From: Gammaproteobacteria bacterium
GTDB lineage: Bacteria > Pseudomonadota > Gammaproteobacteria > Pseudomonadales > Azotimanducaceae
DNA length: 39,638 bases
NCBI GenBank assembly: GCA_002704225.1
Contig: PAFU01000046.1
Span: 30,601-70,238 of the forward strand
Direction of reading: 5' to 3'
Under the pieces are notes generated by a model. That model had not been told where the DNA came from, did not search any database, and worked only from the letters and a program-made list of their open reading frames with translations. This document shows, in pieces, positions 21,104 to 36,250 of the stretch. Each line of letters begins with the position of its first letter. Position 1 is the stretch's first letter. Made by a program: the position numbers and the translations under genes.

Positions 21104-22360
21104 ATGCGGGCTAATCTCACCACGTTTATGGCTCTGCGCTACGCGCTGGGCCGTTTTGGCGGCGCGCAGCGGAACGGTGCGACGGGTGCAACCTCGGTGG
21201 GTTCATTGGCGCTGGCGGGCCTGATCATCAGCATTGCCGTTCTGGTCTTCGTGATGTCGGTGGTGAATGGGTTTGAGCGCGAGTTGCGTGAGCGATTGTT
21301 GAACGTCTTGCCACACATGACCGCTACGTCTCAGCGAGGTATGCCCACAACAGCATTAGGGGATTTAACGGTGCTGCCCAACAACAGCGGTCTGGTGGCG
21401 TTGGCTCCCATGGTGCGCAGCAGTGGGTTGATCGCGGCCAACGGTGAAGTGCGTGCGACGCAAATCACCGGCATCGACGCTGCCTACGGCAGTGTCAGTG
21501 CGCTGGGTGACTTCATGGTGTCTGGACAGCTCGCTGATCTCCATCACTCCCGATTTGGGGTGGTCTTGGGCGGTCGACTGGCGGATCAATTGAGTCTGCA
21601 GGTGGGTGACGATGCGGTGCTGCTGCTGCCGGATCAGAGGGTCAGCATCGCCGGTGCACTGCCGCGCCAAAAGCGTTTTTCTGTCGTTGGGATTTTTCGC
21701 AGTCAGTCGCAACTCGACAGCAGTGGTATCTTTATCGGCCTAGCTGATGCCCAACGTTTGCTCCGCCTGCCAGGACGGGTGCATGGGGTTCAGGGGCGTC
21801 TGCACGATTTGTTTGGCAGTGGCAGCGCCAGTCAGTATCTCTACCAACGCTTTGCCGCGAACGATCTACGGGTGCGCTCATGGATGGTCGAGTTTGGGAC
21901 GCTTTACCAAGCCATCTCCGTGCAAAAAGCCACGTTGTTTTTGCTCTTTTCACTGCTCATCGCCGTTGCGGCGTTTAACCTCGTCTCCGGCTTGATCATG
22001 ATTGTCGAGCAGCGACGCGGTGATATCGCGATTTTGCGCAGCATGGGGGCCAGTCGCCTTCAAGTGCTGGCCTTGTTCTGCATGCTGGGTACATTGCTCG
22101 GCGTGGTGGGAACACTCGCCGGCGTGGCTACGGGATTGGGCCTCGGATGGTTGTTGCCAGCACTGGTAAACGGTGGCTCGGCACTGTTTCAGTATGATCT
22201 GATGTCTCAGTATTTTATTTCTTATTTGCCCGTGCAGGTATTGCCTGAGGACCTGCTGATCATCAGTGCCTTGTCCATTGGCGCTGCGCTGTTGGCTAGC
22301 CTGTATCCTGCATGGCGCGCCATGGGTCTGATGCCTAGTCGAGTACTCGCCAATGAATGA
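21104..22360 (+). CDS. lolC: Lipoprotein-releasing ABC transporter permease LolC
   Basis: LolC is an inner-membrane subunit of LolCDE, which extracts mature lipoproteins for hand-over to LolA. The 418-residue protein shows the family plan: one N-terminal membrane helix (about 30-55, with VFVMSVVNGFERELRERLL after it), a large periplasmic domain, and three C-terminal helices (from about 280). EQRRGDIAILRSMGAS is the cytoplasmic coupling segment. It is named LolC because it comes before lolD; sequence alone does not clearly separate LolC from LolE. The stop overlaps the lolD start by 8 bp. Confidence 0.9.
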   Translation: MRANLTTFMALRYALGRFGGAQRNGATGATSVGSLALAGLIISIAVLVFVMSVVNGFERELRERLLNVLPHMTATSQRGMPTTALGDLTVLPNNSGLVALAPMVRSSGLIAANGEVRATQITGIDAAYGSVSALGDFMVSGQLADLHHSRFGVVLGGRLADQLSLQVGDDAVLLLPDQRVSIAGALPRQKRFSVVGIFRSQSQLDSSGIFIGLADAQRLLRLPGRVHGVQGRLHDLFGSGSASQYLYQRFAANDLRVRSWMVEFGTLYQAISVQKATLFLLFSLLIAVAAFNLVSGLIMIVEQRRGDIAILRSMGASRLQVLALFCMLGTLLGVVGTLAGVATGLGLGWLLPALVNGGSALFQYDLMSQYFISYLPVQVLPEDLLIISALSIGAALLASLYPAWRAMGLMPSRVLANE

Positions 22361-23057
22361 ATCCACGATCATATTGAACGCCAAAGGCATCGAAAAACGC
22401 TTTGCGCAAGGCGATGCATCCATTGAGGTGCTCGGCGGTGTGGATCTGTCGTTGGCGGCAGGGGAACGCGTTGCCATTGTCGGTCGCTCGGGCTCCGGCA
22501 AGAGCAGCTTGCTGCATGTGTTAGCGGGGCTGGACGACGTGAATCAAGGCCAAATATTTGTAGCCGGCGAACCGATGGCTGCTGCCAGTAACGACGCCAG
22601 AACCGCACTCAGGCGAAAATACATGGGCTTTGTCTATCAGCAGCATCACCTGCTACCGGAATTTTCGGCGCTGGAAAATGTCGCTTTGCCGCTGCGTCTT
22701 AACGGTTTGTCGCAAACGATCGCGGAACAACAAAGCCGTAAATTATTAGATCGGATTGGTTTGGGAGCCCGCGTACAGCATCTGCCGGGTGAGTTGTCTG
22801 GCGGTGAGCGCCAGCGGGTGGCCGTGGCCCGGGCTCTAATCCATCAGCCTAAACTTGTGATGGCAGACGAACCTACGGGCAATCTTGATACCACCAGCGC
22901 GGCTGAATTGATGGCGCTGATGGTGGAACTGAGCGAGTCCAGCGGTGTGGCCTTTTTGGTAGTGACTCACGACCCCTCCATGCTGCATCAATTTGATCGG
23001 GTGCTGACGTTGGTCGATGGCAAGCTGCAGGCGGTTTCCGCAGATGACGACGGATAG
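22353..23057 (+). CDS. lolD: Lipoprotein-releasing system ATP-binding protein LolD
   Basis: LolD is the ATPase of LolCDE. The 234-residue protein has Walker A GRSGSGKSS, a Q-loop in VYQQHHLLPEFSALENV (the H-H-L-L-P-E-F stretch is characteristic of LolD), signature LSGGERQRVAVARAL, Walker B LVMADEPTGNLD and the switch histidine in VVTHD. It overlaps lolC (8 bp) and lolE (14 bp), consistent with stoichiometric, coupled translation. Confidence 0.95.
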   Translation: MNESTIILNAKGIEKRFAQGDASIEVLGGVDLSLAAGERVAIVGRSGSGKSSLLHVLAGLDDVNQGQIFVAGEPMAAASNDARTALRRKYMGFVYQQHHLLPEFSALENVALPLRLNGLSQTIAEQQSRKLLDRIGLGARVQHLPGELSGGERQRVAVARALIHQPKLVMADEPTGNLDTTSAAELMALMVELSESSGVAFLVVTHDPSMLHQFDRVLTLVDGKLQAVSADDDG

Positions 23058-24294
23058 CCCGATTCCTGCTGCTGCGGTTAACGGCACGAGTCTCGGGCTG
23101 ATCGCTCGAATGGCTGGTCGCATGCTGCTTCATGGCGCGAATGGTTTTGCTCGCTTTGTGACTTGGGTGTCGTTGATTGGTTTGGTGCTCGGCGTAGCCA
23201 TACTGACCTTGGTGGTCAACGTGATGAACGGTTTCGATCACGAACTGCGCCAACGTTTGCTGGGCAGTATTCCTCATGTATCCATCGCCCAGACCCCGCT
23301 GTCGCCGGCGCTTCAGGCAGCGCTAGAGTCCGACCCTCAGGTACAAAGCTTGGGCAAGTATTATCAAGGCTTCGGCGTGGTTGCCGCTGGGGCGAAAACC
23401 CAGCCGGTGCGCGTTATTGGCTTTGCCGGTGAGGAACTGGCCAGCATGAATGCCATCGCCTCAGTGATGCAGCGGGGTGAACTGTCTAACCTGCAGACGA
23501 CGACTGATGCGCTCGTCATGGGCGAACCCTTAGCCCGGTACCAAGGCCTTTCCTTGGGTGATCCGGTCATGATTGGGGTGACGGTGAGTCGGGGCGACAG
23601 CGTCACCTTGCGCTGGCTCAGGCTAAATCTGGTCGGCACGTTCGAAATGGGCGCGGAAACGGACTACAGCATGGTGCTGGTGAATCTTGATGGTCATACC
23701 GATACCTACTGGGGTGAGTTAGGGCAGGTAGGCACGCGGGTGATGCTGGACAATCCGATGCAGGCGGGTGGCTTTGGGCGGCGGCTTCGTGAGTTGGAAC
23801 CGGCTGTTCCTGTGGACACTTGGGAAGACGTGTATGGCGAACTGTTTCAGGCCGTGCGCATGGAAAAGACCATGATGTTTGTTTTGTTGTTGTTGGTCGT
23901 GGCGATCGCAGGTTTCAATATCATCGCCGGGCAATCAATGATGGTGCATGACAAACGAGCCCAGATCGCCATGCTGCGAACACTTGGGGCTGACCGTCGG
24001 TTTGTGCTGTCACTGTTCTTGTCCCAAGGCGCGGTGGTGGCGGTATTTGGAACAGCCACTGGCTTGGGTCTGGGCATGCTGCTGACGGTATACGTGAACG
24101 ACGTGGTGAATGTTCTCGGTGCCATCAGTGGTCAGCATCTGCTGGACGGATCCTATTTCGTGTCGGTACCCACCCAGATTGTGTCGTCAGATGTTCTGAT
24201 CATTGCGCTGCTCAGTTCAGGTATTGCGCTGCTGTCGTCCTGGCTGCCAGCCCGGCGGGCCAGTCAGCTCAATCCCGCGCGATATTTGCACTGA
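23044..24294 (+). CDS. lolE: Lipoprotein-releasing ABC transporter permease LolE
   Basis: This is the second permease of LolCDE, 416 residues. An N-terminal helix near 40-65 (WVSLIGLVLGVAILTLVV, then NVMNGFDHELRQRLLG) is followed by a periplasmic domain and three C-terminal helices. The cytoplasmic segment is DKRAQIAMLRTLGAD. The ATG at 23044 inside the end of lolD is preferred to the upstream in-frame TTG at 23017, because it gives the usual short N-terminus. It differs substantially from LolC, so the system is the heterodimeric LolCDE type. It ends 23 bp before the convergent DUF2062 gene. Confidence 0.9.
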   Translation: MTTDSPIPAAAVNGTSLGLIARMAGRMLLHGANGFARFVTWVSLIGLVLGVAILTLVVNVMNGFDHELRQRLLGSIPHVSIAQTPLSPALQAALESDPQVQSLGKYYQGFGVVAAGAKTQPVRVIGFAGEELASMNAIASVMQRGELSNLQTTTDALVMGEPLARYQGLSLGDPVMIGVTVSRGDSVTLRWLRLNLVGTFEMGAETDYSMVLVNLDGHTDTYWGELGQVGTRVMLDNPMQAGGFGRRLRELEPAVPVDTWEDVYGELFQAVRMEKTMMFVLLLLVVAIAGFNIIAGQSMMVHDKRAQIAMLRTLGADRRFVLSLFLSQGAVVAVFGTATGLGLGMLLTVYVNDVVNVLGAISGQHLLDGSYFVSVPTQIVSSDVLIIALLSSGIALLSSWLPARRASQLNPARYLH

Positions 24295-24960: not shown

Positions 24961-27132
24961 TTGATTCTATCTCGTCCAATGCGGCGCTCTGTTCGTGGCG
25001 TGTGGTGGTGCACGTTAGCGCTCTTCGCCGGTTTGGGCGTGGGGCTGGCTTGGCATCGGGCTCACTCACAGATCATACCGGAATGTGCGGCGGGTGTTGA
25101 TTTAGAGGTTAGGGGGCAGGTGTTGGCTGCTGATCGTAAACCTACCGGTGAATGGTCGTTAGATGTGCGGGTGATGGGATATGACGAGGGGCAGACGCTC
25201 AAGCGTCCCTCAATGCCGCAGTGCCAGAACTTGGTCGGTAAGCGGCTGTTGGTTCGATGGCGTGCACAAGAACGGATTCAGGCGGGTGAGCAGTGGTTGT
25301 TTACTCTGAAATTGCGGGTGCCTTGGGGGGCAGCGAATCCGGGCGGCTTTGATTACCGGCGTTGGCTGCTGGCCAGTGGCTACTCCGCAACGGGCTACAT
25401 CAAGAAAGGTAAGAAGTTGCTGATACCGAATGCTGTGCCGTTCAGGCCGCGCTGGGTAGCCCACATCCGTGGTTCGCTCGAGCGCCAGGCGCTGGTACAC
25501 GCAAACACCCTGCGGGCTCTGGTGACTGGCAATGGCAGTGCGGTGGGTGCCGGCACATGGGATCGCTACCGGCGGACCGGAGCAATCCATTTGTTGGTGG
25601 TTTCTGGCCTGCACGTATCGGCGCTGGCCGTTCTACTGTTCGCCTGCGTTGGCTATCCGTTGCGCTTAATTAGCGTTGGCAAGGCGAGGGCTTATGCGCA
25701 ATTGGTCAGCGCCTTGGTCGTTTGCCTATGCGCCGTATGGTTTGCGTGGTTCACTGGCGCGGGTTCGCCCGTGACGCGTGTGGCGGGCATGTTGGTTTGC
25801 TTGCTGGCCTTGCGATTGGTGGGACACCTGGTGTCTCTGTGGCGAGTGTTGATCGTTACCCTCGTAGCATCGACGCTGATCTTGCCGCTGCAGGTCTTTC
25901 ACGCGGGGTTTTGGTTGTCCTACGGTGCCGTGGCCGCCTTGGTAGGTTTTTTCTCCGCGAGGCATCCTGTCTGCGGCACCGTGTCTGCTCTGGTGCAGGC
26001 GCAAATCGTGCTGTCGCTTGGGCTATCGCCCTTGCTGGTACTGCTGCTGGGCGAGGCATCCTTGCTGTCCATGCCCGCTAATTTTTTGACCGTGCCCATC
26101 GTCACCCTAGTGACCGTACCGATGCTGTTTTCGGGTCTGGCCCTTGGCTTGCTGCCGCACTGGTTGCCAGCGTCTTCTGCCATACAGAGCCTGTCGACAC
26201 TGACGTTGCAGGTGGCCGACTTCAGCTTGGCGCTGGTTGACGTGTTACTTACTGCGTTGCTTCACAGTGTGCCGCAACACAGTGCCAGCGTCGGCTATGT
26301 CGGCGTCTGCACAGCGATTGCAGCCTTAGTTGGTGGGATCGCTGTATTGATGCCACTGTCGATTCATGCGCGAGTTGGGTTGCTGTTTGTGATTGTCCCG
26401 CTCGGACTGCAGGAGTCTCAGGTCCCTCGCTTCGGCGAGGCCTGTGTGCGGGTTGTTGATGTCGGGCAGGGCAGCGCGGCAGTGATCGACACTGCTGGGC
26501 ATCGTTTGCTGGTGGATACCGGGCCCCGTTTTGGTTCCGGCGATATGGGTCGATCGCATATCTTGCCCTTACTCCGGTCGACTGGGTCTCATAATTTGGA
26601 CTTAGTCTTACTCAGCCACACCGACTTGGATCATGCGGGAGGCATGGCCTTTTTCCGGTCTTACTTTGATGCAGTGCCGGTTATCGGTCCGGACGATTGC
26701 GTTCATGGACGCATGTGGTTGTGGGATGGGGTCAGATTTACGACCTTGCAGGCGGTTGGATTGACCTCGGATAACGACCGTTCGTGTACGTTGCTGATGG
26801 AGACGGAACATCATGCCGCCTACTTGAGCGGCGATATTTCTAGGCGGGCCGAACAAGCGCTACTAGCCCATCTGCCAAGCAATGTTGCTTTTCTGCTTGC
26901 GCCTCATCATGGCAGTGCCAGTTCGTCCTCTATGCCCTTCGTGCGCCAGCTTGCGCCTGAGGTATTGGTTTACAGTGCAGGAAGGACAAATCGCTATGGT
27001 CACCCGCACCCGCGCGTGGTGCGGCGCTACACATGGGAGGAAACACGCCAGTTGAGCACCGCCGATCACGGAGCCATTCAGTGGTGCTCTGCGCCGATGG
27101 CAAGTGTTCGTACACAGCGCGACAGGCTGTGA
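24961..27132 (+). CDS. comEC: DNA internalisation competence protein ComEC/Rec2
   Basis: ComEC is the inner-membrane channel for single-stranded DNA uptake. The 723-residue protein has three parts: an N-terminal DUF4131 region (about 1-170); a multi-helix Competence domain (about 175-480, with TGAIHLLVVSGLHVSALA and FTGAGSPVTRVAGM); and a C-terminal metallo-beta-lactamase-like domain. The last part begins VRVVDVGQGSAAVI, contains LLSHTDLDHAGG (His about 553) and ends with LLAPHHGSASSSS. All three parts are intact. TTG 24961 is used as start; ATG 24979 is the alternative. No other competence genes are in the window. Confidence 0.92.
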   Translation: MILSRPMRRSVRGVWWCTLALFAGLGVGLAWHRAHSQIIPECAAGVDLEVRGQVLAADRKPTGEWSLDVRVMGYDEGQTLKRPSMPQCQNLVGKRLLVRWRAQERIQAGEQWLFTLKLRVPWGAANPGGFDYRRWLLASGYSATGYIKKGKKLLIPNAVPFRPRWVAHIRGSLERQALVHANTLRALVTGNGSAVGAGTWDRYRRTGAIHLLVVSGLHVSALAVLLFACVGYPLRLISVGKARAYAQLVSALVVCLCAVWFAWFTGAGSPVTRVAGMLVCLLALRLVGHLVSLWRVLIVTLVASTLILPLQVFHAGFWLSYGAVAALVGFFSARHPVCGTVSALVQAQIVLSLGLSPLLVLLLGEASLLSMPANFLTVPIVTLVTVPMLFSGLALGLLPHWLPASSAIQSLSTLTLQVADFSLALVDVLLTALLHSVPQHSASVGYVGVCTAIAALVGGIAVLMPLSIHARVGLLFVIVPLGLQESQVPRFGEACVRVVDVGQGSAAVIDTAGHRLLVDTGPRFGSGDMGRSHILPLLRSTGSHNLDLVLLSHTDLDHAGGMAFFRSYFDAVPVIGPDDCVHGRMWLWDGVRFTTLQAVGLTSDNDRSCTLLMETEHHAAYLSGDISRRAEQALLAHLPSNVAFLLAPHHGSASSSSMPFVRQLAPEVLVYSAGRTNRYGHPHPRVVRRYTWEETRQLSTADHGAIQWCSAPMASVRTQRDRL

Positions 27133-32293: not shown

Positions 32294-32896
32294 ATGCTAG
32301 AAATTTTTCAAGACGGTGGCTTCCTGATGCTGCCCATCGCGTTTTGCAGCGTCATCGCCATGGCGATTTGCCTCGAGCGTTGGTGGTCGCTGCGCCGGGC
32401 ACAGGTGTTGCCTGAGCCGCTTATGGCGCGAATGCATGATACTTCCGGCTGGCCTAGCAGCAGCACGGCGCTGAACGAGTTGGGTGAAACCTCGCAATTG
32501 GGCTATGTAGTAGCAGTGGGGCTGGCCAACGTTTCACAGCCCAAGGACGAATTCCAAAAAGCAAGGCAAACTGCGTTGGACATTACGGCACACAGCTTAG
32601 AGCGTCATTTGACGGGGCTCGGTGTTGTTGCGTCGATTTGTCCGCTGCTGGGTATTCTCGGTACCGTGGTGGGGCTGATTGAGGTGTTTGATCAACTGTT
32701 CGCCGCCGGGCAGACCGACTCGCAATTGCTGGCGGGAGGTATTTCCACCGCGCTGATTACCACGGCAGCGGGACTGTCGGTAGCCATTCCAGCCTTGGTT
32801 TGTCATCGCGCGCTGCTGCGCCATGTCGATGCACTCTTGCTCGAGATTGAGGCGGTGAGTGATCGGTTTTTTGATCAAATGAGAAAGGACGCTTAA
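32294..32896 (+). CDS. exbB: ExbB/TolQ-family proton channel protein
   Basis: ExbB-type proteins form the pentameric part of a proton-motive-force motor with ExbD. The 200-residue product has three membrane segments: near 8-28 (GGFLMLPIAFCSVIAMAIC); near 110-135 (LGVVASICPLLGILGTVVGLIEVF); and near 148-172 (ISTALITTAAGLSVAIPALV). The last two contain the conserved Pro/Gly and Thr pore residues. No tonB gene is adjacent. The exbBD-(msbA)-lpxK-kdsB position is conserved in many gammaproteobacteria. The exbD GTG starts directly after its stop. Confidence 0.9.
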   Translation: MLEIFQDGGFLMLPIAFCSVIAMAICLERWWSLRRAQVLPEPLMARMHDTSGWPSSSTALNELGETSQLGYVVAVGLANVSQPKDEFQKARQTALDITAHSLERHLTGLGVVASICPLLGILGTVVGLIEVFDQLFAAGQTDSQLLAGGISTALITTAAGLSVAIPALVCHRALLRHVDALLLEIEAVSDRFFDQMRKDA

Positions 32897-33364
32897 GTGG
32901 CACGGGTGAGAGCCGCGCGCCGCGAACCCGGAATCGAAATAACGCCACTGATTGACGTGGTGTTCTTACTACTGATTTTTTTTATGGTGTCTTCGAACTT
33001 TGTGCAAAACCGAGTCATCCATGTGTCACTGCCGGAATCCGATAGTGCGTTGGCTGGCAGTGGTGAGATATTGCAGATAACCGTTACCGCCGCTGGCGAC
33101 TACTGGGTCGCCGGACAAGACCTTGGCCGTGATATCGAATCTCTGGTGGTGGCGGTTGATGACTACGCGCGGGTGCTGACGGTGGATCAGCTTGCCGCGC
33201 AGTCGGTAGAAATTCGAGCGGATGCAAATGCAACGCATCAGTCGGTGATACGCGTGTTCGACGCTTGCGCCTCTGCCGGATTTGTTCAGGTGAGCCTAGC
33301 CACTGCCATGTCCGCGCAGACGTCTGAGTTCGCGCCATCGCAAAACTCTGATCCCAACCAATAA
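32897..33364 (+). CDS. exbD: ExbD/TolR-family biopolymer transport protein
   Basis: This is the partner of the preceding ExbB. The 155-residue protein has a short cytoplasmic N-terminus and one membrane helix containing the essential aspartate (Asp20 in ITPLIDVVFLLLIFFMV). A periplasmic domain follows, with DANATHQSVIRVFDACASAGF, the region typical of ExbD/TolR. It starts with GTG 32897 immediately after the exbB stop, with AAGGAC as ribosome binding site. The C-terminal 20 residues are low-complexity. msbA::lpxK begins 12 bp downstream. Confidence 0.9.
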   Translation: MARVRAARREPGIEITPLIDVVFLLLIFFMVSSNFVQNRVIHVSLPESDSALAGSGEILQITVTAAGDYWVAGQDLGRDIESLVVAVDDYARVLTVDQLAAQSVEIRADANATHQSVIRVFDACASAGFVQVSLATAMSAQTSEFAPSQNSDPNQ

Positions 33365-33376
33365 CCGGAGCCGGTC

Positions 33377-36250
33377 ATGGCTGAAGACGCGAAACGCAAA
33401 TCAGACTGGTCGATCTATCGTCGGCTGCTGGGATATGTAGGGCACTATTGGCTGCTGCTGATCTTCGCTCTTATTGGGTTTGTTACTGCGGCGGCAGCGG
33501 AAGGGTACTTTGTCAGCTTGTTCGGTAATTTGATCGACGGTTGGGACGATGCTCAAGTCCGCGCGGCGGCGACCATACCCATCATGATGGCCGTGGTGAC
33601 CATGATGCGAGCCTTGGGGGCGATCCTCGGCGAAGCCGCGATGTCTCGGGTGTCCTTTGGCGTGGTCTACGATCTGCGTGAACAGCTGTTTGGCCACATT
33701 CTAAAATCTCCCAGCAGCTATTTTGATAGTGCAACCCAGGGTCATATTGTTTCGCAGATCACCTTTACGGTGACCCAACTGAGGGATACGGGCACCGATG
33801 CCCTCAGAGCGTTGATTCAAGACGGCTTGAAGGTGTTGGCCTACTTAACCTTTATGTTGCTGATCGATTGGCGACTGACGATGTTGTTCATCGCCATGGC
33901 TCCGGTTCTGGGTTTGGTCGTGGCTTTCGCCAGTAATCGCTTTCGTCGGATCAGTCGCCGTATTCAGCATTCCATGGGCGATGTGACCCATGTGGTCTCA
34001 GAGGTTGCCAGTGGCTATCGAGAGGTCAAGATTTTTGGCGGACAAGAACAGGAAGAAAGCCGCTTTCTCTCGGCGAGTAAGGTCAACCGCCAGCAGAACA
34101 TGAAAATGGTGGTGACCAAGGTGTTCAGTTCCCAAACCAACGAAACCATCATTGCTCTAGGGCTCTGCGGGTTGATCTTGGTGTTGTACAGCCCTGACTT
34201 TGGTGTGCAGCTGTCCAGCGGTAAGGCCGTGGAATTCTTGGTATTGGCAGGCATGCTGGGTCGTCCGATTCGCAAGCTCTCGGAAATTAATGCGAAGCTG
34301 CAGCGCGGCTTTGCGGCGGCAGAAGATATTTTTAAGCAGTTAGATTCCGGGATCGAACAAAACACAGGCGTTTTTGAGCTTGAACGCGCTCGCGGTGACG
34401 TGGCGATTGACGGTGTCAGTTTTCGTTACACGCCGGAAGGTCCAGACGTTCTCCACGGTGTTAGCCTGAATATCGCCCCTGGTCAGACCGTAGCGCTGGT
34501 TGGTCGGTCCGGTAGTGGTAAATCTACCTTGGCCAGCTTGTTGCCCCGATTCTATGATGTGGGGCGCGGTAGTCTGTCGCTGGACGGCACCCCGATCGAA
34601 TCCTTTGAACTCGGTAATCTGCGCAAACATATCTCCTTCGTGAGTCAACAGGTCACCTTATTCAACGATACGCTGCGCAATAACATTGCTTATGGCGACA
34701 TGGCAGAGGCTACGGACGAAGAGATCAATCAAGCCTTGCAGCGCTCCTATGCCGATGAGTTTGTTCGCAACCTACCCGACGGGCTGGAAACCTTGGTTGG
34801 CGATGATGGCGTGTTGCTGTCTGGCGGGCAACGGCAGCGAATCGCTATTGCCCGAGCGCTTCTGAAGGATGCCCCGGTGCTGATCATGGATGAGGCCACG
34901 TCGGCGCTCGACAACGAATCAGAAAAGTACATTCAGGCCGCCTTACAAGAGGTCATGGTCGGTCGCACAACATTAGTGATCGCCCATCGCTTGTCCACCG
35001 TAGAGTCAGCGGACGTGATCGTGGTGATGGATCAAGGCAGGATCGTGCAGCGGGGCAGCCACAAAGAACTGCTTAGCCAAGAAGGTTTGTATGCCGATCT
35101 CTACAACGCGCAGTTTCAGGATGATGAAGAGCCGCCGTCTGCACCGGCGAGGTCCGCGACACCGGTCGCGGCAGTCTCAGCGGCACAGTCTCGATCCGGG
35201 GCACTGCTGGGGCAATCTGCCAATGCGGTTACTAGGGCGTGGTACAGCGACGCGTTGTGGGTAAAAACGCTTATGCCATTGGCATGGCTTTACGGGTGGA
35301 TCAGCCGGCGTCGTGCCGTGAGGCAGAAGGCGCTCGGTCAGCAGCGTGCTGCTGAAAATTTCGCGCGCCTGCCAATCATCGTTATTGGCAACATTACTGT
35401 TGGCGGTACGGGCAAAACACCGATGGTGGTGGCGCTAGTAAACTTTTTAACGTCTGGCGGGTTTGCACCGGGCGTTGTGTCACGTGGCTACAAGGGCAAG
35501 CTCAGTCGTCAAGGTGCGCTCATACCTGCTGGAGCGTCGCCGGGCTTGTATTCGGACGAAGGGGTGATGCTAAAACACAAACTGCATTGTCCGATCGCCA
35601 TCGCGGCGGATCGGACTCGGGGTGTTGAACTGCTACGTCAGTCCGGCTGTGATGTGGTGGTAGCTGACGATGGCTTGCAACATTATGCCATGGCGCGTGA
35701 CGTAGAAATTGCCTTGGTCGACGCGACTCGCGGCCTAGGTAATGGTTTGCTGTTGCCTGCTGGACCACTGCGAGAGCCTGTGGAGCGGCTGCGTGAAGTG
35801 GACTTTGTGGTCAGCCACGGCGGAGCATCCGGCTTGCACGCGGGTGAATACACGATGACCACTGAACCTGTGCGTTTTCGACGTTTGAGTGATGGCGTGC
35901 AGGCTTCTGTCGAGGCTTTTCAGGAGCAGCACCCTTGGGTTCGAGCACTGTGCGGTATTGGCAATCCAGACCGGTTTTTACATACCCTTGCTCAAATCGG
36001 GGTGTCCGTTGAGCCGCATGTGTATCCTGATCACCATGGCTTTAGTGGCGATGAGCTCGACTTTACTGATGGTTCACCCATTGTCTGTACCGACAAGGAC
36101 GCCATCAAATTGAGCGAGCTGGATATCGATTTAAGTCATGTCTGGGCACTTGAAATCGCCATAGACCTCCCCGAAGACTTTGCTCAAGCGTTAACGTCGC
36201 TGCTCCAAGAACGGCGCATTAAACCCGGCGCGAACGAGGGCGCCCTCTGA
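33377..36250 (+). CDS. msbA-lpxK: Fusion protein: lipid A flippase MsbA joined to tetraacyldisaccharide 4'-kinase LpxK
   Basis: One uninterrupted 957-codon frame encodes two enzymes of lipid A biogenesis. Residues 1 to about 580 are a complete MsbA: a six-helix exporter domain (about 15-325), Walker A GRSGSGKST (from about 376), signature LSGGQRQRIAIARALL (about 481), Walker B VLIMDEATSALD and IAHRLSTVE. Residues about 581-617 are an acidic then Ala/Ser/Pro-rich linker. Residues about 618-957 are a complete LpxK: membrane-anchor segment LMPLAWLYGWI, P-loop GNITVGGTGKTP (about 672), VSRGYKGKL, DDGLQHYAMARDVEI, LLLPAGPLREP, and C-terminal VCTDKDAIKL. No start codon with a ribosome binding site is seen at the LpxK boundary. 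LpxK phosphorylates lipid A disaccharide and MsbA flips the core lipid A. Both sites are predicted cytoplasmic, so the topology fits. Confidence 0.92.
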   Translation: MAEDAKRKSDWSIYRRLLGYVGHYWLLLIFALIGFVTAAAAEGYFVSLFGNLIDGWDDAQVRAAATIPIMMAVVTMMRALGAILGEAAMSRVSFGVVYDLREQLFGHILKSPSSYFDSATQGHIVSQITFTVTQLRDTGTDALRALIQDGLKVLAYLTFMLLIDWRLTMLFIAMAPVLGLVVAFASNRFRRISRRIQHSMGDVTHVVSEVASGYREVKIFGGQEQEESRFLSASKVNRQQNMKMVVTKVFSSQTNETIIALGLCGLILVLYSPDFGVQLSSGKAVEFLVLAGMLGRPIRKLSEINAKLQRGFAAAEDIFKQLDSGIEQNTGVFELERARGDVAIDGVSFRYTPEGPDVLHGVSLNIAPGQTVALVGRSGSGKSTLASLLPRFYDVGRGSLSLDGTPIESFELGNLRKHISFVSQQVTLFNDTLRNNIAYGDMAEATDEEINQALQRSYADEFVRNLPDGLETLVGDDGVLLSGGQRQRIAIARALLKDAPVLIMDEATSALDNESEKYIQAALQEVMVGRTTLVIAHRLSTVESADVIVVMDQGRIVQRGSHKELLSQEGLYADLYNAQFQDDEEPPSAPARSATPVAAVSAAQSRSGALLGQSANAVTRAWYSDALWVKTLMPLAWLYGWISRRRAVRQKALGQQRAAENFARLPIIVIGNITVGGTGKTPMVVALVNFLTSGGFAPGVVSRGYKGKLSRQGALIPAGASPGLYSDEGVMLKHKLHCPIAIAADRTRGVELLRQSGCDVVVADDGLQHYAMARDVEIALVDATRGLGNGLLLPAGPLREPVERLREVDFVVSHGGASGLHAGEYTMTTEPVRFRRLSDGVQASVEAFQEQHPWVRALCGIGNPDRFLHTLAQIGVSVEPHVYPDHHGFSGDELDFTDGSPIVCTDKDAIKLSELDIDLSHVWALEIAIDLPEDFAQALTSLLQERRIKPGANEGAL

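Follow-up and report, generated by a model that had tools for sequence, protein, structure and literature searches.

Fusion of msbA and lpxK in one reading frame is conserved in a gammaproteobacterial family and recurs outside it

An open reading frame in which an MsbA-type lipid A flippase continues into an LpxK-type kinase raises the questions of whether this arrangement is genuine, how widely it occurs and what it might do for the cell. Both proteins act in a pathway that is essential in most Gram-negative bacteria and have been studied as antibacterial targets. The frame lies on the plus strand of the window, i.e., the whole stretch of 39,638 nucleotides that was analyzed, at positions 33377 to 36250 (stop included). 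It starts with ATG and encodes 957 amino acids. An ordinary msbA-lpxK pair has a stop between the two genes; here, no stop was found in the 957 codons. Reading of the sequence revealed a Shine-Dalgarno (SD)-like GGAG 6 nt 5' of the ATG (33367 to 33370, plus strand). Open reading frames and Pfam matches identified an exbB/tolQ-like gene (MotA_ExbB; 32294 to 32896) and an exbD/tolR-like gene (32897 to 33364) upstream, the latter ending 12 nt from the fusion gene, and a kdsB-like cytidylyltransferase gene (PF02348; 36250 to 36993) downstream, all on the plus strand. The ATG of the downstream gene overlaps the TGA of the fusion gene by one base; the name kdsB is presumed from protein family and gene order.

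Pfam and NCBIfam profile matches divided the protein into an MsbA part (aa 1 to 583; 33377 to 35125, plus strand) and an LpxK part of 337 amino acids (aa 621 to 957; 35237 to 36247, plus strand). The homology ends of the two parts enclose a linker of 37 amino acids (35126 to 35236, plus strand), which agrees with the length of about 37 residues and the acidic start given in a preliminary description of this DNA. Pfam detected ABC_membrane at aa 26 to 296, ABC_tran at aa 359 to 509 and LpxK at aa 631 to 943. The MsbA equivalog model TIGR02203 matched aa 13 to 582 over model positions 1 to 572 of 572 with 677.7 bits (cut-off, 602), and a second MsbA model, NF008381, scored 569.1 and missed its cut-off of 867. 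The LpxK part scored 296 bits with PF02606 (cut-off, 27) and 218.7 bits with TIGR00682 lpxK (cut-off, 91.95; aa 635 to 930). In a 47-row alignment, the MsbA residues G376, S378, G379, G381, K382, T384, S482, G483, G484, Q485, D505, E506 and H537 were invariant. We take aa 376 to 384 to be the Walker A region, aa 481 to 485 the signature, D505 and E506 the Walker B residues and H537 the H-loop. The LpxK part opens with W622 and Y623 and contains a P-loop region (aa 671 to 681) and DDGLQH (aa 764 to 769); D727, D885 and H886 are conserved among relatives. The P-loop and these acidic and histidine residues are presumably active-site residues. The earlier claim that MsbA and LpxK share one frame of 957 amino acids is borne out by the uninterrupted open reading frame from 33377 to 36250, and the claim that both are complete by scores above the curated cut-offs of TIGR02203, PF02606 and TIGR00682. 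At the level of the sequence, the fusion is confirmed as genuine, with both proteins complete.

A structural model generated with AlphaFold2 from the 47-row alignment showed two formed domains (mean pLDDT, 79.5; pTM, 0.51). The linker was predicted to be disordered, with pLDDT values under 50 at aa 581 to 615, and the N-terminal helix of the LpxK part was kept (633 to 660). Because pTM is 0.51, the model does not fix the placement of LpxK relative to MsbA. In a fold search with the model, the best PDB matches were MsbA structures. The fusion resembles MsbA of Pseudomonas aeruginosa (9bd6) and Escherichia coli (6bpl) over the whole length of MsbA, in the membrane domain and in the ATPase motifs; the fold search gave identities of 47 to 48% with the P. 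aeruginosa chains and of 40% with 6bpl. In contrast to the listed MsbA chains, the fusion continues through a linker into an LpxK domain. The LpxK part aligned with the solved LpxK structures 4ehw and 4ehx (E about 2e-21), with 4ehw over residues 11 to 306 of this part. It shares with LpxK (4ehx, 4itl and others) the full domain, the P-loop, the DDG.QH and D-H stretches and the N-terminal helix, whereas the usual LpxK start of its own is absent from the window and the helix is preceded by the linker. In E. coli, msbA and lpxK follow each other in the co-expressed ycaI-msbA-lpxK-ycaQ operon, according to PMC10328246. The gene order is thus shared, but the E. coli genes are separate and the window encodes one polypeptide.

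Profile searches of the window's own genome (G000) revealed one PF02606 match, which is the fusion; no second LpxK was found with this profile. TIGR02203 gave 38 matches, one of which, again the fusion, exceeded the cut-off (runner-up, 443 bits).

The distribution of the fusion was analyzed in the window's genus (40 genomes, window included) and family (f1, with genera denoted g8, g60, g160 and so on). All 35 genomes of the genus with a readable joint were fused, which speaks against an assembly error. Of the remaining genomes, G029 has its locus on a contig that ends before MsbA, and G006, G011, G027 and G033, which are 58 to 70% complete, had no LpxK match. A first f1 set (the window and 58 loci) was fused in 57 of the 57 loci with both sides present; contig ends truncate the remaining two, L049 and L053, and L053 is a second contig of an already counted genome. 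A family profile search covered 206 f1 genomes, 176 of them with a match to E 1e-200, and part of these were read. A second set of 40 f1 loci, chosen mostly for irregular scores or stop flags and including some ordinary members, contained 25 fused loci, 14 with separate genes and 1 with LpxK without MsbA. Among all 97 f1 loci read, 82 were fused, 14 were separate and 1 had LpxK without MsbA. The fused loci directly read span 26 f1 genera, and the fusion is retained in proteins that share as little as 42% identity with that of the window. L223 and L245, counted among the 82, have an open joint, but their assemblies interrupt MsbA further upstream; in L048, L232, L249 and L250, a stretch or contig ends within MsbA. 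Separate genes were found in g60 (5/5 read), g160 (1/1) and g8 (8/14; the other six g8 loci are fused), and the fusion is dispensable, since g60, g160 and part of g8 have separate genes. In one g8 locus (L231, genome G386), a single TAG interrupts the frame shared by msbA and lpxK. A further locus, L248 (G445), shows the apparent first MsbA residues in frame before LpxK and no MsbA match nearby, which would reflect either loss of the interior of MsbA by deletion or a misassembly.

Beyond f1, a profile scan of named genomes gave 80 loci among the matches listed, of which 12 were fused, 44 separate and 24 without MsbA nearby; the 44 were scored as separate because an MsbA-like frame lies on the strand of lpxK, which in L125, L137 and L176 was recognized by a weak distant match alone. 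All six loci titled SAR86, a group of marine bacteria, among the matches listed were fused and none was separate. L115, titled "K189A clade bacterium," was also fused and grouped with f1 rows in trees. In a class-wide sample of 369 genomes, at least 10 genomes outside f1, with nine family codes, had a stop-free match spanning both parts among the best rows (to E 1e-215). Nine of ten candidates were read and all nine were fused; the tenth is G849, for which its congener G944 was read. Among the matches listed, stop-free spanning ones occurred only in f1 in an order-wide sample (390 genomes; to E 1e-262) and only in G000 and G671 in a phylum-wide sample (398 genomes; to E 1e-235). The strict E-value lists of these three samples would miss weaker or more divergent fusions, and the counts are lower bounds. 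The fusion is real, and it is conserved and recurrent in f1 and beyond rather than a lone case.

Several apparent fusions were rejected on reading. In G160, which lies outside f1 and has an open frame of 968 around LpxK, MsbA ends in another frame and LpxK has its own start. Frames of 905 to 1377 amino acids in f49, f123, f102, f79, f152, f65, f197 and f98 looked fused because the frames of the profile search run through stops; 11 of 11 were separate. A further 20 loci with a spanning match and stops (7 from the order sample and 13 from the class sample) were likewise all separate.

To reconstruct the history of the fusion, 163 loci were classified for a tree of MsbA plus LpxK, of which FastTree used 157 rows and a mixture-model tree 63. 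At least nine changes between the fused and the separate state were counted on the FastTree tree and 10 on the mixture-model tree. AU tests were performed on a quick tree, with groups named after a first tree had been viewed. Forcing all fused rows and the separate f1 rows into one clade cost 384 log units (AU p 7e-135), which rejects a single origin of all fusions. These trees indicate that other gammaproteobacterial families gained the fusion apart from f1. The family f1 forms one side of a branch with a support of 94.8, which is not decisive, and on the FastTree tree its rows are not one group. A clade of f1 plus SAR86 was not rejected (AU p 0.70) and outscored the unconstrained tree by 9.65 units, and one fusion event may have preceded both. 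On the FastTree tree, the separate g8 rows form a fully supported group beside the fused g8 rows, within an otherwise fused clade. The best reading of this topology is that part of g8 appears to have re-split the fused genes later; for g60 and g160, the tree is compatible with gain and loss alike. As for the origin, the two genes are frequently neighbors, and many genomes have them in one frame interrupted by a single stop; losing that one stop, with the spacer becoming the linker, would probably suffice.

The joint itself was compared among the fused loci. The window linker is acidic at its beginning and then rich in Ala, Ser and Pro. Linkers measured 19 to 48 amino acids (median, 37) in 57 fused f1 loci by pairwise ends and 20 to 52 in 100 fused loci by profile ends. 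Many are acidic at the start and variable afterwards, followed by the conserved W-Y of LpxK, and overall they are poorly conserved. Between the end of MsbA and six codons into the LpxK domain, an ATG, GTG or TTG occurs in frame just once in the window, as a TTG six codons into the domain that lacks an SD-like site. This matches the earlier observation that no LpxK start with a ribosome binding site is present. Start codons were then counted in a stretch covering the 25 codons before LpxK and its first 3 codons. In 100 fused loci (79 from f1, 12 named and 9 from the class sample, with at least two genomes counted twice, as the rows of L108 and L064 and of L109 and L102 are identical), any ATG, GTG or TTG occurred in 74, an ATG in 29, a start with an SD-like site in 5 (GTG or TTG) and an ATG with an SD-like site in 0. 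The corresponding numbers for 78 adjacent separate pairs, which are not random (20 were chosen for a single shared frame and some others for long frames), were 77, 55, 28 and 19. Five of 83 separate loci, with genes more than 200 nt apart, were dropped from this count, and L050 to L052, fused loci with LpxK cut by contig ends, belong to the 82 fused f1 loci and lie outside the 100. As far as the sequence tells, the earlier statement that LpxK would be produced solely within the fusion holds, as does the 1:1 ratio of MsbA to LpxK unless the chain is cut.

Nei-Gojobori dN/dS values between the window and L094 were 0.022 for MsbA, 0.296 for the linker and 0.053 for LpxK. In ten close pairs, they ranged from 0.015 to 0.084, from 0 to 0.503 and from 0.04 to 0.168, respectively (one LpxK value was not computable). 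These values indicate that both domains are under purifying selection in the compared pairs and that the linker is constrained more weakly and evolves fast.

The best reading is that the gene encodes a bifunctional envelope protein that ties the 4'-kinase to the lipid A flippase, to which we assign a probability of roughly 0.6. The N-terminal 583 amino acids would form an MsbA half-transporter, expected to dimerize, and the C-terminal 337 amino acids a putative LpxK that retains the active-site stretches and has an N-terminal helix of its own for membrane association. Each ATPase domain would be followed by a flexible linker, so that a dimeric flippase would bear two kinases at the cytosolic face of the inner membrane, provided that the protein is made and stays whole. 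The gain would lie in a fixed stoichiometry and in co-locating lipid A synthesis with its exporter, which is simpler than a direct one-step hand-over of lipid IVA.

The main rival, improbable but to be taken seriously, is a near-neutral fusion, in which an in-frame stop was lost between two products already located at one membrane, and the fusion persisted harmlessly without functional coupling. Many separate msbA-lpxK pairs do share a frame interrupted by one stop (many of these were picked for that), and the poorly conserved linker, the repeated origin of the fusion and its apparent splitting within g8 fit this explanation as well. What argues against it is that the fusion has persisted in 26 f1 genera, at identities down to 42%, when a single nonsense mutation plus a start would be enough to separate the genes. 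A bolder reading, which we consider rather unlikely, is that the fusion acts as a covalent hub of lipid A assembly and export, in which the tethered kinase senses or tunes the ATPase cycle of MsbA, or the reverse. If so, entry into the last cytosolic steps would be matched to export, for which species with separate genes would need regulation.

It is less probable still that the fused frame yields two proteins, by cleavage in the linker or from an additional internal start of LpxK. The predicted disorder of the linker would permit cleavage, and the start-like codons that 74 of 100 fused loci have close to the joint would permit minor internal initiation outside the window. However, the window offers just the TTG inside the LpxK domain, the combination of ATG and SD-like site is absent from all 100 fused loci, though GTG or TTG has such a site in 5, and no common motif was noticed by eye among 57 linkers.

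Direct channelling, in which LpxK passes lipid IVA to its own MsbA and lipid IVA is flipped before Kdo addition and late acylation, is very doubtful. Substrate channelling from 4'-phosphorylation to flipping had been suggested in the preliminary description, and the presence of both enzymes in one chain would suit it. In E. coli, however, the LpxK product lipid IVA, itself a poor substrate of MsbA, proceeds to WaaA and then to the late acyltransferases, according to PMC8151780. G000 keeps a WaaA-type gene (PF04413, 1 match) and acyltransferase genes (PF03279, 2 matches), and the hand-over is doubtful because the genome still encodes enzymes acting between LpxK and MsbA. An assembly or base-calling artefact that deleted a stop, conceivable in a 63-contig assembly with 6.65% contamination, is already contradicted, since the frame is likewise open in dozens of separately assembled relatives, including the single-contig G434, G368, G448, G449 and G562.

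A search of titles and abstract openings, with subscription journals mostly outside its scope, found no publication naming an MsbA-LpxK fusion, and literature on K189A/HTCC2089 contained, among the matches listed, nothing on this gene. Databases may have annotated such proteins automatically as multifunctional. The recurrent natural fusion together with natural splits in one genus provides a ready experiment on whether the synthesis of lipid A and its export are brought physically together at the inner membrane, and the fusion offers structural work a single chain with two steps of the pathway.

The searches also yielded observations on lipid A genes in general. Neither an LpxK nor an LpxC match was found in nine of nine f1 genomes, G049 and G496 to G499 (g11), G052 and G450 (g14), G478 (g163) and G495 (g166), which are 79 to 100% complete and are candidate LPS-less lineages in a mostly fused family. 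The f1 genome G470 has LpxC and no LpxK match, and G480 has no LpxK match. G000 contains two LpxC-family matches (C31:13603-14418 and C27:61046-61861), and two each were also found in G038, G445 and G386. Elsewhere in the window, positions 21104 to 24294 encode an ABC ATPase flanked by two FtsX-type permeases, a gene order that we take to be LolCDE-like, followed by a ComEC-type gene at 24961.
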